From Oerskovia paurometabola (GTDB lineage Bacteria; Actinomycetota; Actinomycetes; Actinomycetales; Cellulomonadaceae), in the NCBI RefSeq assembly GCF_016907365.1, contig NZ_JAFBBV010000001.1:1116001-1180000 (forward strand): a DNA stretch of 64,000 nucleotides, written 5' to 3'. Position numbers and translations under genes: made by a program. Within the stretch, counting starts at the first letter, position 1. Every line of letters begins with the position of its first letter. This document shows positions 30,594-47,343 of the stretch, one piece after another. The notes under the pieces were generated by a model. The model did no database searches. It had not been told where the DNA came from and saw only the letters and a list, made by a program, of their open reading frames with translations.

Positions 30594-30745
30594 CCGATCC
30601 TGGTGCGACGGCAAGGAAGCCGTCATCGCTGTTCACGCAGTCACCACCCAGCCCCTCGGACCCGGGCCGACGCAACGATGCGCGGACGCCCGGCGGCAGC
30701 ACTCCCGACTTGCCCCAGCGCGCCCCCCGGAGAGCAGACCGATGA
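30590..30745 (+). CDS. Hypothetical 51-residue protein linking the reductase gene to nuoA
   Basis: ATG overlaps the reductase stop by ATGA, and its own TGA overlaps the nuoA ATG by ATGA, so it fills the gap exactly in a chain of coupled genes. The product is polar, Pro/Ser/Arg-rich (MTDPGATARKPSSLF ... APRRADR), with no helix or motif I recognise and no Cys. It could be a real small protein or merely a translated bridge that keeps ribosomes moving from the reductase gene to nuoA. Supported by position, not homology. Confidence 0.5.
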   Translation: MTDPGATARKPSSLFTQSPPSPSDPGRRNDARTPGGSTPDLPQRAPRRADR

Positions 30746-31104
30746 CCAACCCGTACGTGCCCGTCCTCGTCCTGATGGGGATCGGAGCCGTCCTGGCTCT
30801 CGGCGGGGTCGCCGCGAGCGCCGTGATCGGCCCCAAGAGGTACAACCGCGCCAAGCTCGACGCGTACGAGTGCGGCATCGAGCCCACGCCGCACGCGGTC
30901 GGCGGAGGGCGCTTCCCGATCAAGTACTACCTCGTCGCGATGACCTTCATCATCTTCGACATCGAGGTGGTCTTCCTCTACCCGTGGGCGGTGGACTTCA
31001 CGGTCCTGGCCACCTTCGGGCTCGTCGCCATGCTGAGCTTCCTCGCCCTGATCACCGTGCCGTTCGTCTACGAATGGCGCCGTGGCGGGTTCGAGTGGGA
31101 CTAG
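30742..31104 (+). CDS. nuoA: NADH-quinone oxidoreductase subunit A
   Basis: 120 residues, three membrane helices. Conserved [19 protein letters not shown] loop (Cys-bearing, conformationally active near the quinone site), [27 protein letters not shown], and the final helix before [13 protein letters not shown]. Part of the membrane arm of complex I, next to the quinone tunnel. ATG overlaps the preceding small ORF. A 25-base gap, the longest inside the nuo run, separates it from nuoB. Confidence 0.95.
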
Positions 31105-31129
31105 CCGGAACCAGTTAGGGAGAACGCAG

Positions 31130-31681
31130 ATGGGGATCGAAGAGGCTCCCTCGGGCTTCTTGCTCACGAGCGTGGAGAACCTCGCGGGGTACTTCCGCAA
31201 GGCGTCGCTGTGGCCGGTGACGTTCGGCCTGGCGTGCTGCGCCATCGAGATGATGGCGGCCGGCGCGTCGCGCTACGACCTGTCCCGCTTCGGCATGGAG
31301 GTCTTCCGGGCCTCGCCGCGGCAGGCCGACCTGATGATCGTCGCGGGTCGCGTGAGCCAGAAGATGGCGCCTGTGGTGCGCCAGGTCTACGACCAGATGT
31401 CCGAGCCCAAGTGGGTGCTGTCGATGGGCGTGTGCGCGTCGAGCGGCGGCATGTTCAACAACTACGCGATCGTGCAGGGCGTCGACCACATCGTGCCGGT
31501 CGACATCTACCTGCCCGGCTGCCCGCCGCGCCCCGAGATGCTCATCAACGCGATCCTCGCGCTGCACGAGCAGATCCAGGCCGAGCCGCTGGGCGTGAAC
31601 CGGCGCGAGGCGGCGAAGGCCGCGGAGGCCGCGGCCCTCGAGGCGACCCCCACGTTCCAGATGAAGGGACTGCTGCGGTGA
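31130..31681 (+). CDS. nuoB: NADH-quinone oxidoreductase subunit B
   Basis: 183 residues. Ligands for the terminal cluster N2 are present: [11 protein letters not shown] (tandem Cys), a Cys in [16 protein letters not shown], and [12 protein letters not shown]. It passes electrons to menaquinone at the NuoB-NuoD interface. TAGGGAGAA lies before the ATG. The C-terminal 35 residues ([21 protein letters not shown]) are Ala-rich, as in other actinobacteria. GTGA overlap with nuoC. Confidence 0.96.
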
Positions 31682-32475
31682 CGAGCACCAACGACGGCTC
31701 GACGGGCCGGCCCGCGGACGACGTCCAGCGCGAGAAGGTCGCGAAGGGCGACGTCCCCGGCGACGAGCTCGTGACCGGGCCGGAGACGGGCGGCCGCGAG
31801 CCGCTCGAGGTCGTCGAGGTCCGCACGGGCATGTTCGGGGCCAAGGGCTCGGGCGACACCTCGGGGTACGGCGGGCTCGTGCGGCCCGTGGTGCTGCCGG
31901 GGCCGAGCGCTCGCCCGTACGGCGGCTGGTTCGACGAGGCCGTCGACGTCCTGGCCGAGGTCCTCGCCGAGGGCGGCGTGCGCTTCGAGGACGCGGTCGA
32001 GCAGGTCGTGGTGGACCCCCCGGGGCGCCACGCCGAGCTCACGCTGCACGTGCGCCGCGACCACGTCGTGACGGTCGCCCGCGCGCTGCGCGACGAGCAG
32101 GACCTGCGCTTCGAGCTGAGCATGGGCGTGAGCGGCGTGCACTACCCGCACGACGTGGGCCGTGAGCTGCACGCCGTCTACCACCTGACGTCGGTGACCC
32201 ACGGGCGCAGCCTGCGCCTCGAGGTCTCCGTCCCCGACGCGGACCCGCACATCCCGTCGAGCACGTCGGTCTACCCGTCCAACGACTGGCACGAGCGCGA
32301 GACGTGGGACTTCTTCGGGATCGTGTTCGACGGCCACCCGGCCCTCGCCCGCATCGAGATGCCCGACGACTGGCCGGGCCACCCGCAGCGCAAGGACTAT
32401 CCGCTCGGCGGCATCCCGGTCGAGTACAAGGGCGCCACGGTGCCCCCGCCGGACCAGAGGAGGTCGTACTCGTGA
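31678..32475 (+). CDS. nuoC: NADH-quinone oxidoreductase subunit C
   Basis: 265 residues, GTG start overlapping the nuoB stop. An N-terminal extension of about 75 polar residues precedes the 30-kDa-subunit core, which ends with the family signature [27 protein letters not shown] and the C-terminal [14 protein letters not shown]. Peripheral-arm subunit without cofactor. GTGA overlap with nuoD. Confidence 0.94.
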
Positions 32476-33821
32476 GCACCACCACCCCCCACGCCACGAA
32501 GGCGCCGTACGGGGACTTCGACCCGAGCATCCCCAGCTTCGAGGCCTCGGGCGGCGACTGGGCGGACATCGCCGCAGAGGCCACCCAGCTGGGCGAGGAG
32601 CGCATCGTCGTCAACATGGGCCCCCAGCACCCGTCCACGCACGGCGTGCTGCGGCTCATGCTCGAGATCGACGGCGAGACGGTGACCGAGGCCCGCTGCG
32701 GCGTCGGCTACCTGCACACGGGCATCGAGAAGAACATGGAGTACCGGACGTGGACCCAGGGGGTCACGTTCTGCACCCGCATGGACTACCTCGCCCCCCT
32801 CTTCCAGGAGACCGCGTACTGCCTCGCGGTCGAGAAGCTCCTCGGGATCACGGACGACGTGCCCGAGCGCGCGAGCATCATCCGCGTCCTCATGATGGAG
32901 CTCAACCGGATCGCGTCGCACCTCGTCTGCCTGGGCACGGGCGGCAACGAGATGGGCGCGACGACCGTCATGACCATCTCCTTCACGGCGCGCGAGGAGA
33001 TCCTGCGCGTCTTCGAGGCCGTCACGGGCCTGCGCATGAACCACGCGTACGTGCGCCCCGGCGGCGTGGCGCAGGACGTCCCGCCGGACGTCGTCGCCCA
33101 GATCCGCAAGGCCGACCCGCTGATCCGCGGCTACCTCGGCCAGCTCGGCGACCTCATGCTGGCCAACCCCATCTTCAAGGGACGCCTCCAGGGCGTCGGG
33201 CACCTCAACCTCTCGGGCTGCATGGCGCTCGCGATCACGGGCCCGGTGCTGCGCTCGACCGGCCTGCCGTACGACGTGCGCAAGGCCGCCCCGTACTGCG
33301 GCTACGAGACGTACGACTTCGACGTCCCCACCTCGGACGAGGCCGACTGCTACTCGCGCGTCGTGCTGCGCCTCGAGGAGTGCTACCAGTCGTTGCGGAT
33401 CGTCGAGCAGTGCCTCGAACGCCTCGAGGCCACGGCGGGCCAGCCCGTCATGGTCGCCGACAAGAAGATCGCGTGGCCCGCTCAGCTCGCGGTCGGCGCG
33501 GACGGTCAGGGCAACTCGCTCGACCACATCCGCGAGATCATGGGCACCTCGATGGAGGCCCTGATCCACCACTTCAAGCTGGTCACCGAGGGCTTCCGGG
33601 TCCCGGTCGGGCAGGTGTTCCAGTCGGTCGAGCACCCTCGTGGCGAGCTCGGCGTGCACCTGGTGTCCGACGGCGGCACGCGCCCCTACCGGGCCCACTT
33701 CCGTGATCCTTCGTTCAACAACCTGCAGGCGGTCGCCGTGATGTGCGAGGGCGGCCAGGTCGCCGACGTCGTCGTCGCGGTCGCCTCGCTCGACCCGGTG
33801 CTGGGAGGGGTGGACCGATGA
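32472..33821 (+). CDS. nuoD: NADH-quinone oxidoreductase subunit D
   Basis: 449 residues. [21 protein letters not shown] carries the quinone-site histidine, [16 protein letters not shown] and [14 protein letters not shown] are family blocks, and the C-terminus has [15 protein letters not shown]. It forms the quinone pocket with NuoB. GTG start in the nuoC stop (GTGA) and ATGA overlap with nuoE. Confidence 0.96.
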
Positions 33822-34677
33822 CGCTCGAGGCCAGGAGGTCCGGATACGACGAGGCGACGTACGCGCGCCTCGCCACGGACACCGCGGCGATCATCGCCCG
33901 GTACCCGGAGAAGAGGTCCGCGCTGCTGCCCATGCTGCACCTGGTGCAGTCGGAGGACGGCTACGTCTCGCGCGACGGCATCGCGTTCTGCGCCGAGCAG
34001 CTCGGCATCACGGCCGCCGAGGTGTCGGCCGTCGCGACCTTCTACACGCAGTACAAGCGCCACCCCAACGGCACCTACACCGTCGGCGTGTGCACCAACA
34101 CGCTGTGCGCGATCATGGGCGGCGACGAGATCTTCGACGAGCTCTCGGAGCACCTGGGCGTCGGGCACGACGAGACGACGGACGACGGCGCGATCACCCT
34201 CGAGCGCGTCGAGTGCAACGCGGCGTGCGACTACGCGCCCGTCGTGATGGTCAACTGGGAGTTCTTCGACAACCAGACCCCCGCGGGTGCCACGCAGCTC
34301 GCCGACCGCCTCCGGGCTGGAGAGGACGTCGCCCCCACGCGCGGCGCGGCCTCGGTCTGCACGTTCAAGCAGATGAGCCGCGTGCTCGCCGGGTTCTCGG
34401 ACGGCCGCGCGGACGAGGGCGTCGGGGCCGGCGGCCCCACGCTCGCCGGGCTACGGCTCGCGCGCGAGCACGACTGGACCGCACCGGGCGGGGCAGCTCC
34501 GGAACAGGTCGACGAGCCGGCCACGGACACGGGTGCGGCGGCCGCGGCGGGCGCCTCCGCCGTCGGGCGTGAGCAGTCCAGCGCCGAGCGCACGCCCACC
34601 ACGCCCGCCGACGCCACGGGCGAGAAGCCAAGGACTCGGGCCTGCGCGGCCGAGGCGGCGCCGGGTTCCCCACGGGC

Positions 34678-34681
<4 letters not shown>
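33818..34681 (+). CDS. nuoE: NADH-quinone oxidoreductase subunit E, C-terminus replaced at a junction
   Basis: 287 residues. Thioredoxin-like [2Fe-2S] domain with ligands in [11 protein letters not shown] and CNAACDYAP (cluster N1a), then a helical THTF-like segment ([15 protein letters not shown]) and a Pro/Ala-rich tail. Residues 1-271 look native. The last 16 ([16 protein letters not shown]) are nuoF coding sequence read in the wrong frame: the same bases in the nuoF frame give [16 protein letters not shown]. The true stop is therefore missing. The core domain should still fold; the altered part is a disordered tail. Confidence 0.88.
34621..34680 (+). other. Apparent deletion junction between nuoE and nuoF
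   Basis: From 34630 the nuoF frame reads [16 protein letters not shown] and runs straight into MKWGF; upstream of 34630 that frame has no NuoF-like sequence. The nuoE frame stays open across this point until 34681. About 50 N-terminal NuoF codons, the nuoE stop and the nuoF start codon are missing compared with the family. Breakpoint is within roughly 34621-34632. It could be a real deletion or an assembly collapse. Confidence 0.8.
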
Positions 34682-35822
<1,141 letters not shown>

Positions 35823-35823
<1 letters not shown>

Positions 35824-38558
35824 TGACGACCACGACGCCCGGCCCGTCGAGCGCGGTCGCGGCGGGAGGCGCGAAGCCCCCCGCCCGCCCCGACGACGTG
35901 TCGTTCACGATCGACGGCATCGAGATGGCCGTGCCCAAGGGCACCCTGGTCATCCGTGCCGCCGAGCAGGTCGGCATCCAGATCCCGCGGTTCTGCGACC
36001 ACCCGCTGCTCGCCCCCGCGGGCGCGTGCCGCCAGTGCCTCGTCGAGGTCGCCACCCCCGACCGCGAGGGCAACGTCCGCCCCATGCCCAAGCCGCAGGC
36101 CTCGTGCACGCTCGAGGCCACGCCGGGCATGGTCGTCAAGACCCAGCACACCTCCGCTGTCGCCGACAAGGCGCAGCACGGCGTCATGGAGCTCCTGCTC
36201 ATCAACCACCCGCTCGACTGCCCGGTGTGCGACAAGGGCGGCGAGTGCCCCCTGCAGAACCAGGCCATGAGCAACGGGCGCGCGACGAGCCGCTTCGTCG
36301 ACGTCAAGCGCACGTTCCCCAAGCCCATCGCGATCTCGACCGAGATCCTGCTCGACCGCGAGCGCTGCGTCCTGTGCCAGCGCTGCACCCGGTTCTCCGC
36401 AGAGATCGCGGGCGACGCGTTCATCGACCTGCAGAAGCGCGGCGCGCAGCAGCAGATCGGCCGGTACGACGCGCGCGTCCTGGGGTTCGCGGACGGTGAC
36501 GCGGAGCCGAGCACTCCCGCGGCGGCGATGCCCTACGGCGCGCAGGCCGGGTTCGAGGCCCCCGTCGGGGCGGCCCTCGAGGACGAGTCCGGTCGCCCGT
36601 TCGCGTCCTACTTCAGCGGCAACACCGTGCAGATCTGCCCGGTCGGGGCCCTCACGGGCGCGGCGTACCGTTTCCGCTCGCGGCCCTTCGACCTGGTCTC
36701 CACCCCGGGCGTCGGCGAGCACGACGCGTGCGGGTCCGCGATCCGCGTCGACCACCGCCGCGGCGTCGTGCTGCGGCGCCTGGCGGGCGAGGACCCGCTG
36801 GTCAACGAGGAGTGGATCACCGACAAGGACCGCTTCGCGTTCCACTGGCAGGACGCACCGGACCGCCTGACCCACCCGCTCGTGCGCGACCGCGAGGTCG
36901 ACACCGAGGGCCGTGTCACGCGCGGCGAGCTGCGCCCCGCGAGCTGGGCCGAGGCCCTCGAGGTCGCGGCCGACGGACTGTCTCGGGCCCGCGCGGCGGG
37001 CGGCGTCGGGGTCCTCCCCGGCGGTCGCCTGACCGTCGAGGACGCCTACGCGTACGGCAAGTTCGCCCGCGTGGTCCTGGGCACCAACGACGTCGACCAC
37101 CGCGCCCGCGTGCACTCGGCCGAGGAGGCCGACTTCCTGGCCCACCGCGTCGCGGGCACGGGGCTGGGCGTGACGTTCGACGAGCTCGAGAAGGCTCCCG
37201 CCGTGCTCCTCGTGGCCCTCGAGGCGGAGGAGGAGGCGGGCGTCACGTTCCTGCGCCTGCGCAAGGGCGTGCAGAAGCGTGGCCTGCGGGTCTTCTCGAT
37301 CGCCCCCTTCGCGAGCCGGGGCGTGCAGCGCCTCGACGGCACGCTCCTGCGGGCAGCGCCCGGCACCGAGCCCGAGTGGCTCGACGCGCTCGCCTCGGGC
37401 ACGCAGACCCTGTTCGGCCACGAGGGCGCCGTGGGCCCCGACGCGCCCGAGTCGGTCGACGAGCCCACCGAGGTCTCGGCTCTGCGCGAAGCGCTCGCAC
37501 GGCCCGGAGCCGTGGTCCTCGTGGGCGAGCGTCTCGCCGGCGTCCCGGGCGGGTACTCGGCGCTGCTGCGCCTGGTCGAGAGCACGGGAGCACGGCTCGC
37601 GTGGGTCCCGCGCCGGGCGGGGGAGCGCGGCGCGGTCGAGGCAGGCACGCTGCCGGGCCTCCTCCCGGGCGGACGCCCCGTGCCCGACGCCGCAGCACGC
37701 GTCGACGTGGCCGTCACCTGGGGCGTCGAGCACCTCCCGGAGGCGACCGGACGCGACACGGGGGAGATCCTCGACGCGCTGTCCGTGGGGCAGCTCGGCG
37801 GGGTGCTCGTCGGCGGCCTGCACACCGACGACCTGCCCGACCCCGACCACGCGCGTCGCGCGCTGGGCGCCGCAGGCTTCGTCGTGTCCCTCGAGGTCCG
37901 TGCCTCGGACGTCACGGCGCTCGCGGACGTGGTCCTGCCCGTGGCCCCGCCGGTCGAGAAGGCCGGGGCGTTCGTGAGCTGGGAGGGCCGCGTGCGGACC
38001 TTCCCCGCGGCGCTCGCCACGACCGCGATGCCCGACCACCGCGTCCTGGACGCGCTCGCCGACGCCGCGGGAGTCACGCTCGGGACCCGGACGCTCGACG
38101 AGGTCCGGTCCGAGATCGACCAGCTCGGCACCTGGGACGGCGAACGCTCGGCGGCACCCGCCGCCGCGGCCGCCGAGCCGCCCGCAGTCGCGCCGGGCAC
38201 CGCGGTGCTCGCCGGGTGGCGGCTGCTCCTCGACGCAGGCCGCGGCCAGGACGGCGAGCGGTTCCTCGCCGGCACCGCCAAGCGCCCCGTCGCCCGCCTG
38301 TCCGCGACGACCGCCGCTGCGGCCGACCTCTTCGAGGGCGACGTCGTGCGGGTCTCGACCGACCGCGGGTCGATCGAGCTGCCCGTCGTGGTGACCGACA
38401 TGGTCGAGCACGTCGTGTGGCTCCCGCTCGGCTCGCAGGGGTCGCAGGTCCACCGCGACCTCGGCGTCGCGCCGGGGACGCTCGTGCGGATCGAGCCCGC
38501 CGCGCGGTCCACCGTGACCGCACGGTCCACCCAGCCCACCGACGGGGGAGCATCATGA
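35823..38558 (+). CDS. nuoG: NADH-quinone oxidoreductase subunit G
   Basis: 911 residues. The N-terminal ferredoxin-like domain has Cys ligands in [17 protein letters not shown] and ASCTLEA (N1b), then [17 protein letters not shown] (His-ligated N5), [10 protein letters not shown] with CPVGALT (N4). A molybdopterin-oxidoreductase-like domain fills the rest. It also has a long Ala/Val-rich C-terminal half somewhat longer than the usual 790-850. Relays electrons from NuoF to NuoI. ATGA overlap with nuoH. Confidence 0.95.
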
Positions 38559-40012
38559 CCGGTCTGCTGAACCTGGCCCTGGCCTCCGAGGCGGCCCTGG
38601 TCACGGAGACTCCGGGAGTACCGGGGATCGCGGCCGACTTCTCGCAGGACAACGGCTGGACCTACCTGGTCAAGGCCGTCCTCATCATCGTGTTCCTGCT
38701 CACGAGCGTGCTCATCGCCATCTGGTTCGAGCGCAAGGTCGTGGCCCGCATGCAGGTCCGTCCCGGACCCAACGTGCACGGGCCCTTCGGGCTGCTCCAG
38801 TCGCTCGCGGACGCCATGAAGCTGCTGCTCAAGGAGGACCTCACGGTCTCCGCGGCGGACAAGTTCGTGTACATCCTGGCGCCCATGATCGCGGTGTTCT
38901 GCTCGTTGCTGACGTTCGCGGTCATCCCCTTCGGGCCGAACGTCACGATCCCGTTCACGGACTACTCGACGCCCGCACAGCTCACCGACTTCCCCGTCGC
39001 GGTGCTCTACATCCTGGCGTGCGCCTCGGTGGGCGTGTACGGGATCGTGCTCGGCGGCTGGTCCTCGGGCTCCACCTACCCGCTGCTCGGCGCGGTCCGC
39101 TCGACGGCCCAGGTCATCAGCTACGAGCTCGCGATGGGCCTGGCCCTGGTGAGCGTGTTCATCATGGCCGGCTCGATGTCGACCTCGGAGATCGTCGACT
39201 CCCAGACGCGCGTCTGGTGGGCCCTCATCCTCATCCCGAGCTTCGTCATCTACATCATCGCGATGATCGGCGAGACGAACCGCCTGCCGTTCGACCTCCC
39301 GGAGGCCGAGGGCGAGCTCGTCTCGGGCTACATGACCGAGTACTCGTCCATGAAGTTCGCCTGGTTCTTCCTCGCCGAGTACATCAACATGATCAACGTC
39401 TCGGCCGTGGCGACCACGCTCTTCCTGGGCGGGTGGCGCGCCCCCTGGCCGCTGTCCGCGATCAACGACGGCATGTTCAACGAGGGCTGGTGGCCCATCC
39501 TCTGGTTCCTCGTCAAGGTCTGGGCCTTCATGTTCGTGTTCGTGTGGGTCCGCGGGACGCTCCTGCGCCTGCGGTACGACCAGTTCATGAAGTTCGGCTG
39601 GAAGATCCTCATCCCGGCCGCGCTCGCCTGGATCGTCGTGCTCGCGGTCGTCCAGGGCATGATCCGCTTCGGCGACGTCGACAACCGCACGATCCTCGTC
39701 GCTGCCGGTGCGCTGTTCGCCGTCGCGCTGCTCGCGATCTTCCTGTGGCCCGCCCGCAAGGAACCCGGAGGGGGAGCCGGAGACGCCGGGGGAGCGACGC
39801 CGTCGGGCACCTCGCCCTACCGCAAGGCGGCCACCGCCTCGCCCGAGCCCTTCGACGCCTTCGCGGGCGGCTTCCCCGTCCCGCCGCTGCCCGGCCAGTC
39901 CCTGCCCAGCGCCTCGCGCCGAGCCCGGCGCCTGGTCCCCGAGGGCAGCCCGCCATCCGGCGGGGGCCCCGCAGCTCCCGACGCCCAGGACGAGGAGGTC
40001 CCCCGTGGCTGA
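38555..40012 (+). CDS. nuoH: NADH-quinone oxidoreductase subunit H with long C-terminal tail
   Basis: 485 residues, eight membrane helices ending near residue 400. Quinone-tunnel motifs [17 protein letters not shown] and [21 protein letters not shown] are intact. An extra hydrophilic tail of about 85 residues ([14 protein letters not shown] ... QDEEVPRG) follows. The tail also contains the ribosome-binding site for nuoI, whose GTG lies 8 bases inside this gene. Subunit of the membrane/peripheral arm interface. Confidence 0.95.
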
Positions 40013-40673
40013 CTACGAGTCGTTGATCCCCCAGAGGAAGGGGCTCGGCGGGCTGCTCGCGCCCGTCGCCGGATTCGGGGTCACGTTCTCCTCGATGTTC
40101 AAGCCGACCGTGACCGAGCAGTACCCGTTCGAGAAGGTGCCGACCAAGCCCCGCTACCACGGTCGCCACCAGCTCAACCGGTACGAGGACGGCCTCGAGA
40201 AGTGCATCGGGTGCGAGCTGTGCGCCTGGGCCTGCCCCGCGGACGCGATCTACGTCGAGGGAGCGGACAACTCCGCGCTGCCCGACGGGGCGCACCGCTC
40301 GCCCGGCGAGCGCTACGGCAGCGTCTACCAGATCAACTACCTGCGCTGCATCTTCTGCGGGCTGTGCATCGAGGCGTGCCCCACGCGGGCCCTGACGATG
40401 ACCAACGAGTACGAGCTCACCGGACCGACCCGTGAAGGGCTGATCTGGGAGAAGGAAGACCTGCTCGCGCCGCTGCGCGAGGGCATGCTCGCCGCCCCGC
40501 ACCCCATGGTGCCCGGGACGACCGACACCGACTACTACCGGGGAGAGGTGACCGGGCCCGTGCCCGAGCAGATCGACTGGGTGCGCGAGCACAGGCCCGA
40601 CGACCCGACCTTGCCGCCCGTCGAGGACCCCGCCGCCGCACGGCGCCCCGAGGTCCGGAAGGTGGTCCGGTGA
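40005..40673 (+). CDS. nuoI: NADH-quinone oxidoreductase subunit I
   Basis: 222 residues, GTG start. Two 4Fe-4S motifs, [12 protein letters not shown] and [12 protein letters not shown] (clusters N6a and N6b), carry electrons to NuoB. The C-terminal 60 residues ([19 protein letters not shown] onward) are an actinobacterial extension. GAGGAGG inside nuoH precedes the start. GTGA overlap with nuoJ. Confidence 0.96.
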
Positions 40674-41593
40674 CCGTCAGCGGGGGAGAGGTCGTCCTGT
40701 TCTGGGTCCTCGCCCCGCTCATGGTGCTGGCCGCGCTCGGCCTGCTGTTCGCCCGCAAGGCCGTGCACGCCGCGATCTGCGTCGTGTTCGTCATGATCAG
40801 CCTCGCGATCCTCTACATCGCGCAGGAGGCGGCGTTCCTGGGCGTCGTGCAGATCGTGGTCTACACGGGCGCCGTCATGATGCTCTTCCTGTTCGTGCTC
40901 ATGCTCGTGGGCGTCGACGCGTCGGACTCGCTCGTCGAGACCATCCGCGGCCAGCGCCTCATCGGGGTGCTGCTCGGGCTGGGGCTCGGCTCGGTGCTGG
41001 TCGGGGTCGTCGCACAGGCGACGTTCCCGCCCTCGGTCGGGCTCACGGCGGCCAACGCCGAGTCCAACCCCGTCGCGCTCGCCCGCATCCTGTTCGCCGA
41101 CTACGTGTTCGCGCTCGAGGTCGTCGGCATCCTGCTCGTGACCGCGGCGATCGCGGCCCTCGTCCTGACGCACCGGCGCCGGCTCGTGCCGCGCGTCGGG
41201 CAGCGGCAGATCTCCGACGCCAAGGTCGCCGCGCTCGCCGAGGGCGGGCTCCTGACCCCGCTGCCGGCGCCGGGCGTCTACGCGCAGAACAACGCGATGG
41301 ACACCCCCGCGCTCGACCCGCAGGGTCGCCCCATCGAGCACTCGGTCTCGCGCATCCTGCGCATCCGCGGGCAGGAGCGCTCCGCGGGACGGATCCTCGC
41401 CAAGGAGCGGGCCGTGCTCGCCGAGCACGAGCCCGAGCTGACGGCCCGGCGCTTCCCCGAGCTCACGGCCGCCACCGACGAGGAGGCCGCCGCGGACCTG
41501 TCGGGCGAGGCGCCGGTGCCTGCGGCCGAGCCGGGGGCCTTCCCGACCGACACCACGTCCGGGCCGACCACCGAGCACGGGAAGGAGAGCTGA
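40670..41593 (+). CDS. nuoJ: NADH-quinone oxidoreductase subunit J with long cytoplasmic tail
   Basis: 307 residues. Five membrane helices; TM3 holds the pi-bulge region [24 protein letters not shown] involved in coupling. The remaining 140 residues after LVLTHRRR are hydrophilic, far beyond the usual 160-200-residue NuoJ, and end in a Pro/Glu/Thr stretch. Several actinobacteria have such tails; role unknown. Confidence 0.94.
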
Positions 41594-41594
41594 C

Positions 41595-41894
41595 ATGGAG
41601 CTGACCAACTACCTGGTGCTCGCCGCGATCCTCTTCGCGATCGGCGCGACGACCGTGCTGCTGCGACGCAACGCGATCATCGTCTTCATGGGCATCGAGC
41701 TCATGCTCAACGCCACCAACCTGACGTTCGTGACGTTCGCCCGCATGCACGGTGACCTCCACGGTCAGGTCATCGCCTTCTTCGTGATGGTGGTGGCCGC
41801 GGCCGAGGTCGTCGTGGGGCTCGCGATCATCGTGGCCATCTTCCGTACCCGCCGCTCGGCCTCGGTCGACGACGTCAACCTGCTGAAGAACTGA
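41595..41894 (+). CDS. nuoK: NADH-quinone oxidoreductase subunit K
   Basis: 99 residues, three helices. The conserved membrane Glu residues are visible in [14 protein letters not shown] and [16 protein letters not shown], part of the central proton path. Starts 1 base after nuoJ with GGAGAGC as ribosome site. Confidence 0.96.
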
Positions 41895-41904
41895 GAGGGC
41901 AGGC

Positions 41905-43944
41905 ATGCCAACGGTGACTCTGCTTCCAGCCCTCGCGCACGTCGTGCCGGCCGCGCTGCCGACCCAGGAGATCGTCCCGGCCTCGACCGTCGTGCCCGGG
42001 CCGTTCCTGCTGGCCCCGCTGCTGATCCTGCTGCCGCTCCTGGGGGCCGCGGTCCTGCTGCTCGCGGGACGGCGCAGCGACCGGTGGGGCGCGTGGTTCG
42101 GGGTGCTCATGTCGGGCGGCGCGTTCATCGTCGCGCTGGTGGTGTTCTTCTCGATGCTGGGCCTGCCCGCCGACGAGCGGGTGGTCGACCACCGGCTCTT
42201 CGACTGGATCGCTGCAGGCGGGCTCGACGTGGGCGTGGGCCTGCGGCTCGACCCGCTGTCCATGACGTTCGTGCTGCTCGTGACGTTCGTCGGCACGCTC
42301 ATCCACGTCTACGCGGTCGCGTACATGGAGCACGACAAGGACAAGCGCCGGTTCTTCGCGTACCTCAACCTGTTCGTCGCGGCCATGCTGGTCCTGGTCC
42401 TCGCGGACTCCTACCTCGTGCTGTTCGTCGGCTGGGAGGGCGTGGGCCTGGCCTCGTACCTGCTGATCGGGTTCTGGAACCACGAGCGGGCCAACGCGGT
42501 GGCCGCCAAGAAGGCGTTCATCATGAACCGCGTGGGCGACCTCGGCCTGATCGTCGCGCTCATGCTCATGTTCGCGGGCTTCGGCGCGGTGGACTTCGCG
42601 ACGGTCTTCGCCGACGCCCCGGGGGCGGGCACGGCGCTGCTGACCGCGATCGCCCTCGCGCTCCTGGTCGCCGCGTGCGGCAAGTCGGCGCAGTTCCCGC
42701 TCCAGGCGTGGCTCGGTGACGCCATGGCGGGCCCCACGCCCGTCTCGGCGCTCATCCACGCGGCCACCATGGTCACCGCGGGCGTCTACCTGGTCGTGCG
42801 CTCGGCGCCGATCTTCGACGGAGCCCCGACGGCGCAGCTCGTCGTGGTCCTCGTCGGCGCGGTCACGCTCCTGTTCGGGGCGATCGTCGGCTGCGCCAAG
42901 GACGACATCAAGAAGGTCCTGGCGGCCTCGACGATGTCGCAGATCGGCTACATGATGCTCGCGGCCGGGCTGGGACCGATCGGGTACGCGTTCGCGATCT
43001 TCCACCTCGTGACGCACGGCTTCTTCAAGGCAGGCATGTTCCTCGGGGCGGGCTCGGTCATGCACGGCATGGACGACGGGGTCGACATGCGCCGCTTCGG
43101 CGCACTGTCGAGGTACATGAAGGTCACCTGGGTCACGTTCGGCCTGGGCTGGCTCGCGATCCTCGGGATCCCGCCGTTCTCCGGGTTCTGGTCCAAGGAC
43201 AAGATCATCGAGGCGGCGTTCGTGCCGATCGACGGCCAGGAGTGGCGCGCGTGGGTCTTCGGCGGCGTCGCGCTGCTGGGAGCGGGCATCACGGCGTTCT
43301 ACATGTCGCGCCTGTTCTTCATGACCTTCCACGGGCACAAGCGCTGGAACGACGGGTCGGGCAACCCCACGGGGCCTCTCTCGACCGACGGCCCCGTGCA
43401 GCACCCGCACGAGTCGCCCGCGCTCATGACGGCGCCCATGATCGTCCTCGCGGTCGGCTCGGTGGCACTGGGCGGGCTGCTCGCGATGGGCGACGTGTTC
43501 GTCGACTGGCTCTCGCCCGTCACGGGCCATGCCGAGCACGCCGAACCGGTGCTGCCGGTGTGGTCGCTCATCACGCTGACCCTGGTCCTCGTCCTGCTGG
43601 GCGTGCTCCTGGCCTGGCGTCAGTTCGCGGTGTCCCGTGTCCCGATCGTCCCGCCGCACGGTTCGGTCCTGACCCGCGCGGCCCGCAAGGACCTCTATCA
43701 GGACCAGGTCAACGAGGCCGTGTTCATGCGGCCCGGGCAGTACCTCACGCGGTCCCTCGTCTACGGGGACCGGCAGATGGTCGACGGCGGCTGGATGGGT
43801 CTTGCCGGCCTCGTCGGCGCGACAGGGGAGAAGTTGCGCGGCATGCAGAACGGATTCGTCAGGTCGTACGCGGCGACGATGCTCGCCGGCCTGATCGTGA
43901 TCGTCGCGGTGGTCCTCGCCGTGACCACCGGAACAGGGAGCTGA
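41905..43944 (+). CDS. nuoL: NADH-quinone oxidoreductase subunit L
   Basis: 679 residues, antiporter-like subunit with about 16 helices. Motifs [19 protein letters not shown] (key Glu), [37 protein letters not shown] (Lys and His residues of the proton channel), and [14 protein letters not shown] (broken helix). The C-terminal portion forms the lateral helix and an anchoring TM ([16 protein letters not shown]). Distal proton pump of complex I. Confidence 0.96.
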
Positions 43945-43951
43945 GGGACCG

Positions 43952-45517
43952 ATGACCACCGAGATTCCCTGGCTGACTCTCCTGATCGTCCTGCCGCTCG
44001 TCGGCGCGGCCGCCGTCTGGGGGCTGGGCGCCACGTCGGCGCGCAAGCACCTGCGGACCGTGGCGGTCGTGTTCGGCCTCGCCGAGCTCGTGCTCCTGGG
44101 CCTCGCGATCAGCGCGTTCGACACCGCCGACGCGGGCACGTACCAGCTCACCGAGACGCACGCGTGGATCCCGCAGCTCGGCGTGAGCTACGCGGTGGGG
44201 GCCGACGGGGTCGCGCTCCTGCTGGTCGGGCTGGCGGTCCTTCTCGTCCCGCTCGTGATCCTGGCGGCGTGGCGCGAGCAGGACGGCGACCTCGCGAAGC
44301 TCCGCCACTACCTGGGGCTCGTGCTGCTGCTCGAGGCGTTCATGGTCGCGGTCTTCGTGGCCCGCGACGTGTTCTTCTTCTACGTGCTGTTCGAGGCCAT
44401 GCTGATCCCGGTCTACTTCATGATCGGCGGGTTCGGGGGCGGGGCGCAGCGGCGCTACGCGGCCGTGAAGTTCCTGCTGTTCTCGCTCGCGGGCGGGCTC
44501 GTCATGCTCGTCGCGGTCATCGCCCTGTACCTCAACGGGCCGGGCGGTGAGCAGGGCTTCCTGACGCAGAACCTGGTCGACCACCTCGCCGCGAACCCGC
44601 TGGCGGTGAGCACCGAGAGGCTGCTCTTCCTGGGGTTCTTCCTGGCCTTCGCGATCAAGGCGCCGCTGTTCCCGGTCCACACCTGGCTGCCCGACGCCGC
44701 CGAGCACGCCCCCGCGGGCACCTCGACGCTGCTCGTGGGCGTCCTGGACAAGGTGGGCACGTTCGGCATGCTGACGCTGTGCCTGCCGCTCTTCCCGAAC
44801 GCGAGCCAGTGGGCGGCGCCCGTGGTCGTGGTGCTCGCGGTCGTCTCGATCCTCTACGGCGCGCTCATGGCGATCGGTCAGAGCGACATCATGCGGCTCA
44901 TCGCCTACACCTCGGTGTCGCACTTCGGCTTCATCGTCCTCGGGATCTTCTCGTTCACGTCGCTGAGCGTCTCCGGTGCCTCGTTCTACATGTTCAACCA
45001 CGGGATCTCGACGGGGGCGCTGTTCCTGCTCGCCGGGTTCCTGGTCGCGCGGCACCCCGCACGCTCGCAGCGCCTGGCCGACTACGGCGGGCTCCAGCGG
45101 GTCACGCCGGTCCTCGCGGGCACGTTCCTCGTGGCGGGTCTCTCTGCCCTGTCCCTGCCCGGTCTCTCGACGTTCGTCTCGGAGATCATGGTGCTCGTGG
45201 GGACGTTCTCCCGCAGCCACCCGGCAGCTCTCGTGGCGGTCCTGGGCGTGGTGCTCGCGGCCCTGTACGTCCTGCTGACCTACCAGAAGGTCTTCACGGG
45301 CAAGGCCCCGCAGGACCTCCTGGGAACCCCGGACCTCGGGGCGCGCGAGAAGTGGGTCGTCGCACCCCTGGTCGTGGCCCTGCTCGTCCTCGGCTTCTAC
45401 CCGGCCCCGGCGCTCGACCTCGTGCGCGAGCCCGCGGACGCGACCATGACGGCCGTGGGCGTCGAGAACCCGCCCACCACCCCTGATCTCCTCAGCGTTG
45501 AAGGGAGCGACTCGTGA
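43952..45517 (+). CDS. nuoM: NADH-quinone oxidoreductase subunit M
   Basis: 521 residues, 14 helices. Signatures FFFYVLFEAMLIPVYFMIGGFGG (key Glu), AIKAPLFPVHTWLPDAAEHAPAGTSTLLVG (Lys), and YTSVSHFGFIVLGIF. Second antiporter-like proton channel. GTGA overlap with nuoN. Confidence 0.96.
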   Translation: MTTEIPWLTLLIVLPLVGAAAVWGLGATSARKHLRTVAVVFGLAELVLLGLAISAFDTADAGTYQLTETHAWIPQLGVSYAVGADGVALLLVGLAVLLVPLVILAAWREQDGDLAKLRHYLGLVLLLEAFMVAVFVARDVFFFYVLFEAMLIPVYFMIGGFGGGAQRRYAAVKFLLFSLAGGLVMLVAVIALYLNGPGGEQGFLTQNLVDHLAANPLAVSTERLLFLGFFLAFAIKAPLFPVHTWLPDAAEHAPAGTSTLLVGVLDKVGTFGMLTLCLPLFPNASQWAAPVVVVLAVVSILYGALMAIGQSDIMRLIAYTSVSHFGFIVLGIFSFTSLSVSGASFYMFNHGISTGALFLLAGFLVARHPARSQRLADYGGLQRVTPVLAGTFLVAGLSALSLPGLSTFVSEIMVLVGTFSRSHPAALVAVLGVVLAALYVLLTYQKVFTGKAPQDLLGTPDLGAREKWVVAPLVVALLVLGFYPAPALDLVREPADATMTAVGVENPPTTPDLLSVEGSDS

Positions 45518-47343
45518 CCACCGCAGCCGCCTTCGTGGCCCCCGTGATCGAGTGGGCCTACCTCGTCCCGGTCATCGTCGTGCTGGGTGCGGGCGTCGTC
45601 GGGGTGCTCGTCGAGGCCTTCGTGCCCGACCGTGCCCGCCGGGTGGTGCAGGTCGTGCTCGCGCTCGCCGCGCTCGCCGGGGCGCTCACGTCGATCGTCC
45701 TGCTCTGGCCCGACGTGCTCGAGCAGAGCGGTGTGAGGGTGCTCGGCGGCTCGCTCGTGGTGGACCCGTTCGGGCTGGCCGTGCAGGGGATCGTCGTGGT
45801 CCTCGCGCTCCTGGCGACGCTCGTGATCGCCGACCGCACCTCGACCAAGCAGGACGCGTTCGCTCCCACGGCCGCGGCCGTGCCGGGCTCGGCGTACGAG
45901 GACCTCGCGCGGCGGCGCGGTCTCGAGCAGACCGAGGTGTTCCCGCTCGTGCTCTTCGCGGTCGGCGGCATGATGATCTTCCCCGCGACGGGCGACCTGC
46001 TGACGATGTTCGTCGCGCTCGAGGTGCTCTCGCTTCCGCTGTACGTGCTCACGGCGCTCGCGCGGCGCCGTCGGCTCCTGTCGCAGGAGGCGTCCTTCAA
46101 GTACTTCCTGCTGGGGGCCTTCGCGTCGGCGATCTTCATCTTCGGGGTCGCGCTGGTCTACGGCTTCGCCGGTTCGGTGCGGCTCGCGGACGTGCGTGGC
46201 GCCCTCCTGGAGGGCGGCGGTCTCGACGGCATGACGAGCCTCGTGCTGCTCGGCCTCGTCATGGTGCTCGCCGGGCTGCTGTTCAAGGTGGGGGCCGCGC
46301 CGTTCCACTCGTGGACCCCTGACGTCTACCAGGGCGCCCCCACGCCTGTCACAGGCTTCATGGCGGCCTGCACCAAGGCCGCGGCCTTCGGGGCGCTCCT
46401 GCGCGTGCTGTACGTCGTCGGCTCGGCGCTGCCGCCCGACCTCCAGGAGAAGCTCGTGGTCGCGCTGTGGGTCGTCGCGATCCTCACGATGATCGTCGGG
46501 ACCGTGATCGGTGTCATCCAGACCGACATGAAGCGCCTGCTCGCGTACTCGTCGATCGCGCACGCGGGCTTCCTGGTCGTGGCGCTCGTCGGGTTCGGCG
46601 AGCTGAGCGGGTTCGGCGTGCGCGCGCTGCTGTTCTACCTGCTGGCGTACGGCCTGGCGACCGTGGGAGCGTTCGCGGTCGTGACGCTCGTGCGAGAGCG
46701 CGCCCCGCAGCCCGTCGTGGTCCCCGCCGAGGCGGAGCTCGCGACGGTCGGCGCGGTGCCGGGCGCCACGGCAGCCGGGTCCGCGGGGACGTCCACCACC
46801 TCGCCCGACGGCGGAGCGGTCCTGGGCGAGGCCACGCACCTCACGGAGTGGGCCGGGCTGGGCAGGCGGAGCCCGTGGCTCGCGGGCGCGTTCGCGCTCT
46901 TCCTGCTGTCGATGGCCGGGATCCCGCTCACGGCGGGGTTCATCGCCAAGTTCACGGCGTTCCAGTCGGCCGTCGCGGTGGGCGCCTGGCCGCTCGCCCT
47001 GATCGGTGTGATCGCCTCGGCCGTCGCGGTCTTCTTCTACGTGCGGGTCATCGTGCTGATGTTCTTCACGCCCTCGCCGCGGGCCGCGTCGGACGCCGTC
47101 ACGGAGCCCGGTGCAGCCGCACCGCGCGCGGACCAGGACGGCGAGCAGGTCGTCGAGGCGACAGGGGCGACAGGCGGACAGGCCCGCTCCGTGGCCGCGT
47201 TCGTGAGCCGTGTCACGGTCGTCCGGTCGGAGGGATTCACCACGATCGCCATCACGATCTGTGTGATCGGCGTCATCCTTCTCGGCGTTTTGCCGTCCTC
47301 GGTTCTCGATCTGGCCTTCGAGGCGGCTAAGTTCAGACCGTGA
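45514..47343 (+). CDS. nuoN: NADH-quinone oxidoreductase subunit N with two Ala/Gly-rich inserts
   Basis: 609 residues against about 480-530 in most bacteria. Core motifs LEVLSLPLYVLTALARR, KVGAAPFHSWTPDVYQGAPTPV and AYSSIAHAGFLVVALVG are normal. The extra length sits in polar loops: one near residues 120-145 (SAYEDLARRRG), one near 400-445 (VVVPAEAELATVGAVPG ...), and one near 525-565 (AASDAVTEPGAAAPR ...). Such loops are common in high-GC actinobacteria. Third antiporter-like channel. GTGA overlap with the synthase gene. Confidence 0.95.
   Translation: MTTAAAFVAPVIEWAYLVPVIVVLGAGVVGVLVEAFVPDRARRVVQVVLALAALAGALTSIVLLWPDVLEQSGVRVLGGSLVVDPFGLAVQGIVVVLALLATLVIADRTSTKQDAFAPTAAAVPGSAYEDLARRRGLEQTEVFPLVLFAVGGMMIFPATGDLLTMFVALEVLSLPLYVLTALARRRRLLSQEASFKYFLLGAFASAIFIFGVALVYGFAGSVRLADVRGALLEGGGLDGMTSLVLLGLVMVLAGLLFKVGAAPFHSWTPDVYQGAPTPVTGFMAACTKAAAFGALLRVLYVVGSALPPDLQEKLVVALWVVAILTMIVGTVIGVIQTDMKRLLAYSSIAHAGFLVVALVGFGELSGFGVRALLFYLLAYGLATVGAFAVVTLVRERAPQPVVVPAEAELATVGAVPGATAAGSAGTSTTSPDGGAVLGEATHLTEWAGLGRRSPWLAGAFALFLLSMAGIPLTAGFIAKFTAFQSAVAVGAWPLALIGVIASAVAVFFYVRVIVLMFFTPSPRAASDAVTEPGAAAPRADQDGEQVVEATGATGGQARSVAAFVSRVTVVRSEGFTTIAITICVIGVILLGVLPSSVLDLAFEAAKFRP

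Follow-up and report, generated by a model that had tools for sequence, protein, structure and literature searches.

The nuo operon and its nuoE-nuoF junction

The window analysed here is a stretch of 64,000 nucleotides (G000:C1:1116001-1180000) from a genome of Oerskovia paurometabola that is assembled as a single contig of 4,326,429 bp and is listed as 99.99% complete. On its forward strand lie 14 nuo genes, of which nuoF encodes the 51 kDa (Nqo1, NDUFV1) subunit of respiratory complex I, where NADH is accepted. Both the upstream part of the operon, nuoA-nuoD (30742..33821), and the downstream part, nuoG-nuoN (35823..47343), are open. GGCAGGAG is kept upstream of the nuoG ATG, and the downstream genes should therefore still be translated. 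An earlier note on this DNA held that every complex I subunit other than NuoF is intact, and indeed all 13 other nuo genes are open, each matching its own Pfam family.

The gene for the [2Fe-2S] subunit, nuoE (33818..34681, forward strand; 287 aa; PF01257, E 4.4e-49), reads from ATG 33818 through to TGA 34679-34681, its residues past 34629 being a run-on into the former nuoF region. In this genus NuoE carries a long C-terminal tail rich in alanine, proline and glutamate beyond the [2Fe-2S] domain (34310-34628 in the window); the Pfam match stops at residue 165 and the length of the tail varies between genomes. In the nuoF frame, a stop at 34570 leaves the frame open only from 34573, and the sequence up to 34629 is not NuoF-like. 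At 34630..34677 (forward strand) there follow 16 residues of NuoF, forming the glycine-rich flavin loop, and then MKWGF. The first ATG, GTG or TTG of the frame is the ATG at 34678, with no in-frame start upstream of the loop, and the open reading frame from it (34678..35823, forward strand) encodes 381 aa, without residues 1-68 of the intact 449. The flavin loop is thus encoded but lies 5' of the first usable start and is absent from the predicted product. Translation and alignment therefore agree with the earlier note, which had the nuoE frame running through to a stop at 34681, nothing NuoF-like upstream of 34630 and a product from ATG 34678 lacking the glycine loop for FMN.

What remains of NuoF is readily recognised. 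The truncated frame aligns to the solved chains 8e9g_F, 8qby_F and 2fug_1 and matches PF01512 and PF10589 above their cut-offs. The PF01512 (Nuo51 FMN-binding) match starts at profile position 23 for the product from ATG 34678 (115 bits) and at position 2 when the frame is read with the loop (148 bits). A 15-residue motif region and the CGKCTPC region are retained; the flavin/NADH motifs of the Rossmann domain and the N3 cysteine motif are present, in the form of the 15-residue motif and a 10-residue motif. The N-terminal domain preceding the glycine-rich loop is missing. Of the solved chains, 8e9g_F (NADH-quinone oxidoreductase subunit F; E 5.1e-195) scores best and aligns from KDSGLRG on, with query residues 1-381 on chain residues 48-436 and the later flavin/NADH and cluster motifs kept. 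The first 47 residues of that chain have no counterpart in the window, and translation from ATG 34678 leaves out the glycine-rich flavin loop as well. Judged from its sequence, this NuoF belongs to the known family in damaged form and does not represent a new kind.

The truncated nuoF ATG overlaps the run-on nuoE TGA as ATGA (34678..34681, forward strand), which the earlier note ascribed to chance. The overlap is real. It is less of a coincidence than was claimed, because the ATGAAG at this site is already present in all seven genomes of the genus compared (the window and six congeners), and because the missing length, a multiple of three, keeps the old offset between the nuoE and nuoF frames. 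The bases before ATG 34678, GGGTTCCCCACGGGC, contain no purine-rich ribosome-binding site.

A 180-bp segment is missing relative to six congeners

The earlier note proposed aligning the junction with that of the closest relatives, and the nucleotide alignment revealed a clean gap: 180 bp carried by all six congeners (G001-G006) are absent at 34629..34630 (forward strand). Counted from the M of MKWGF, position 34619 of the window corresponds to -239 in the congeners and position 34630 to -48. In five of the six the alignment is otherwise gap-free; in G005 the nuoE tail is longer by 24 bases, at a point about 100 bp 5' of the junction. A second alignment method recovered the same event in all six pairs, placed as 182 beside -2, net 180. 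The breakpoints share a single nucleotide (C), so the junction may equally be written 34628|34629.

The segment comprises the 24 bp before the nuoF GTG and the first 156 bp (52 codons) of nuoF. Its loss deprives nuoE of its end and stop, and further removes the ribosome-binding-site-like GAAGGGGAAG, which in the congeners lies within those 24 bp and is followed by the GTGA overlap of the nuoF start with the nuoE stop, the GTG start itself and NuoF residues 1-52 of 449. This fits the earlier claims that the nuoE stop and nuoF start are gone and that about 50 residues, or 150-250 bp, are missing. In the six congeners the segment has the same length and is nearly identical, and this genome is the only one of the seven without it. 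At 72-74%, its G+C content matches the window's 73%, and no extreme single-strand folding is predicted for it (z +0.8 and -1.1). In congener G006 a 12-nt repeat with a spacing of 182 bp ends 16 nt before the left breakpoint and 14 nt before the right one. A two-step deletion, hinted at by some aligner placements, is possible but less parsimonious, since the neighbouring codons of the nuoE tail are GAG in G006 and AAG in the outgroup G017.

Neither the segment nor a second NuoF turned up elsewhere in the genome. With 40 of 194 first-look candidates scored, the congener segment gave only short matches to the rest of the genome, the best being 50 bp at 80%; the 68-aa NuoF N-terminus matched the residual loop and three chance-level places (E >= 0.34), with no second copy; and a PF01512 profile search of the genome found one locus.

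NuoF among relatives

Over the 397 aa shared, NuoF of the window is 97-99% identical to those of the six congeners. Full-length NuoF of the genus has 449 aa (P0001, P0002), and the closest named NuoF, that of Oerskovia turbata (P0002), is intact and 97% identical, in contrast to the truncated protein of the window. All six congeners have an intact NuoF with a GTG start in the GTGA overlap, both of which the window lacks. Close relatives sharing the short NuoF would, according to the earlier note, have marked it as natural; none of the six does, and a genus trait is ruled out.

More widely, the N-terminus was intact in all 109 comparison loci, scoring at least 84, against 9 for the window and 46 for the top-scoring of 300 shuffled versions of one N-terminus. 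The 110 loci are 30 from relatives' genomes (the window included) and 80 kept out of at least 595 scan matches; species may overlap between the two sets, and the 80 may omit records from the window's own genome or from one very close to it. The nearest named loci among these 80 were from Cellulosimicrobium and Sanguibacter. Among 99 genomes (the window's own included) 80 had a NuoF match, 76 of them close (>= 428 bits). The open NuoF frame has 416 aa in the window's genome and at least 443 aa in each of the other 75 with a close match. Two genomes (G041, G057) have nuoH and no close nuoF, but their contigs stop before the position of nuoF is reached and nothing is inferred from them. Two irregular NuoF records were also seen. 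In G018 (L223, G018:C1:145500-149500) about 474 bp interrupt the match within a single open frame; an intein was ruled out there, the 'insert' being a run of unknown residues. A 574-aa metagenomic NuoF (P0003) runs through a first, almost complete copy of the middle part, then re-enters NuoF near a 15-residue motif, and is probably a chimeric assembly.

Constraint on the nuo genes and quality of the assembly

Changes private to one genome were counted codon by codon and summed over the 14 nuo genes. The window's genome has 8 nonsynonymous and 77 synonymous private changes, compared with 12/87, 12/104, 5/55, 17/54 and 11/97 in G001 to G005, respectively, and 24/94 in G006, for which nuoJ-nuoN were not covered. 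The nuoF remnant itself has no nonsynonymous and four synonymous private changes. With no excess of amino-acid changes, the lesion must be either very recent, at the tip of the branch, or an error; if it is real, the operon would have been under normal constraint almost until now.

We also compared 400 kb of this genome with its congeners, about 190 kb of which could be chained to at least three of them (including about 23.5 kb absent from G002), using home-made gene calls. Private small frameshifting indels in predicted genes numbered 1 in the window's genome (about 190 kb), 1 in G002 (176 kb), 2 in G001 (155 kb) and none in G005 (155 kb). Private losses of at least 20 bp numbered 5 in this genome and 1 each in G002, G001 and G005. 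Of the four besides the nuoE-nuoF event, the three that were aligned all lie in stretches that vary among the congeners; at the fourth the congeners themselves range from 161 to 1022 bp. Within the part of the genome compared, only the nuoE-nuoF event cleanly removes conserved sequence. Gene-by-gene tblastn flagged 11 of 237 G002 genes, 4 of 64 G001 genes, 2 of 72 G005 genes and 2 of 83 G004 genes as disrupted in the window's genome, and in the reverse direction 18 of its 234 genes as disrupted in G002; we judge that these flags stem mostly from over-extended starts in the home-made gene calls and that the genome does not stand out.

Some features of the wider genome were noted along the way. 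At a variable stretch near G000:C1 position 1014048 (L112; position 14048 of the 400 kb), flanked on either side by a conserved coding-like block, three congeners exceed this genome by about 123-132 bp; G001 and G005 agree with each other there, and G002 is different from both. Two stretches outside the window, at about 1090220-1113769 (L116-L117, about 23.5 kb) and at 1205432-1233622 (L122-L123, about 28 kb), are absent from the otherwise collinear G002 and are possibly mobile elements.

Deletion or error, and what the remnant could still do

We lean towards a genuine, recent, strain-specific loss-of-function deletion of 180 bp. The main competitor, to which we give an appreciable though less than even chance, is a sequencing, consensus or assembly error in an otherwise good genome, with an intact nuoE-nuoF junction in the living strain. 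No such gap is seen in any of the 75 relatives whose NuoF match is close, the private losses of at least 20 bp speak somewhat for an error, and the lack of excess amino-acid changes is predicted equally by an error and by a very young lesion. The 12-nt repeat near the breakpoints points the same way, but it is not at the junction. Because the breakpoints share only 1 nt, a collapse at a repeat is not indicated, and slippage at the 12-nt repeat is rejected because a clean exchange there would yield another product; a looser role of that repeat is possible. Against an error, too, stands the absence of any excess of private frameshifting indels, and the three other aligned private losses sit where the congeners also differ, so that a generally error-prone assembly is unsupported by the frameshift counts despite the difference in private losses. 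Dropout driven by G+C content is ruled out, since that of the segment equals that of the window, and the folding of the segment is not extreme. That the missing length is a multiple of three is a one-in-three chance and decides nothing between the two readings. Ku is encoded in the genome, and end-joining with 1 nt of homology fits.

Two further readings would leave a working complex despite the gap. We think it very unlikely that a functional NuoF is still made, from a non-standard start or by a frameshift from nuoE giving a NuoE-NuoF fusion, with the flavin loop kept and the N-terminal 52 residues absent. The 16 loop residues are still in frame with the remainder, the remnant has no private amino-acid change, and the nuoE and open nuoF frames share a stretch of more than 100 nt in which a -1 shift would fuse the two. 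Yet no ATG, GTG or TTG lies in frame upstream and the ribosome-binding-site-like stretch is deleted; the nuoE frame contains no X XXY YYZ slippery heptamer between 34400 and 34681, and rescue by a programmed -1 frameshift is rejected on this ground. Moreover, the N-terminal domain, found in every comparison locus, wraps the Rossmann domain and leads to the flavin loop according to passages of PMC4614703. More improbable still is that the deletion was favoured, with complex I no longer dependent on NADH but taking electrons from ferredoxin or another donor: the complex without its flavin entry would then be a donor-fed, quinone-reducing proton pump, the 14-to-11-subunit step run backwards. All genes outside the NADH module are open, and 11-subunit and flavodoxin- or ferredoxin-fed complexes are described elsewhere (in excerpts of PMC11238625); the 11-subunit complexes would share with that of the window the absence of NADH oxidation. 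However, in those complexes NuoEFG is wholly absent, whereas the window keeps most of nuoF as well as open nuoE and nuoG genes that match their families, with private amino-acid changes no more numerous than in the congeners. No subunit gene is inserted at the junction, the nuo genes being continuous, and the loss is private to one genome, with an ordinary nuoE-nuoF arrangement in all six congeners.

Predicted consequences for complex I

On the favoured reading of a genuine deletion, a joint nearly free of homology would link the 3' end of nuoE to codon 53 of nuoF, and nuoF would have lost its ribosome-binding site and start codon along with the first 52 residues of its product. NuoF may then be poorly made, with translation at ATG 34678 coupled to the run-on nuoE stop, or it may not be made at all; the ATGA overlap makes some coupled re-initiation possible. 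Any truncated NuoF would be without the N-terminal wrap and the flavin loop, and complex I would lack FMN or fail to assemble. NADH would be oxidised by NDH-2 instead, and proton pumping at the complex I site would be lost. A disease variant supports this by analogy: in extracts of PMC4614703, NDUFV1 R88G, which hits the same glycine-rich loop, left no detectable complex I in Yarrowia. R88 corresponds to the window codon 34651-34653 if the alignment is gap-free there (query residue 1 being residue 81 of the 464-aa mammalian chains). The yeast change is a single substitution, whereas the product from the ATG in the window lacks the whole loop and the N-terminus. We infer that complex I could not oxidise NADH, and it is probably dead in the sequenced strain unless the gap is a sequencing error.

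Possible respiration without complex I

Survival of a strain without complex I is plausible. The genome encodes two NDH-2-like proteins, one of 460 aa whose best solved match is 9mqy ('NADH:ubiquinone reductase (non-electrogenic)', E 2.9e-57) and one of 518 aa whose best solved match is 5na1 ('NADH dehydrogenase-like protein', E 2.3e-38), as well as cytochrome bd subunit I. Both NDH-2-like proteins fall below the cut-off of every NCBIfam model among the matches listed, and we therefore keep the label 'NDH-2-like'. In Mycobacterium tuberculosis, killing requires inactivation of both types of NADH dehydrogenase, according to an excerpt of PMC10746327. Among the 99 genomes (the window's own counted), 18 have neither a NuoF nor a NuoH match, which makes complex I dispensable in the order. 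Among them are all the genomes sampled from two genera of this family, three each, g5 (G010, G034, G050) and g11 (G016, G040, G056), and this suggests that complex I was lost inside the family.

No title among the top matches listed from the open-licence literature concerned a nuoE-nuoF lesion; complex I mutations arising in laboratory evolution are known in principle (PMC8795404). To conclude, this is a local lesion of one gene in one strain, an event of a known kind and not a new system, and the understanding of complex I is unchanged by either outcome. Automatic annotation can hide such a lesion, as the ATGA formed by ATG 34678 and the run-on nuoE stop looks normal. If the gap is an error, the sequence record is in need of correction. 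If it is real, the strain would be a complex I mutant of natural origin, and comparison with its intact sister strains could show how far actinobacteria depend on complex I as opposed to NDH-2.
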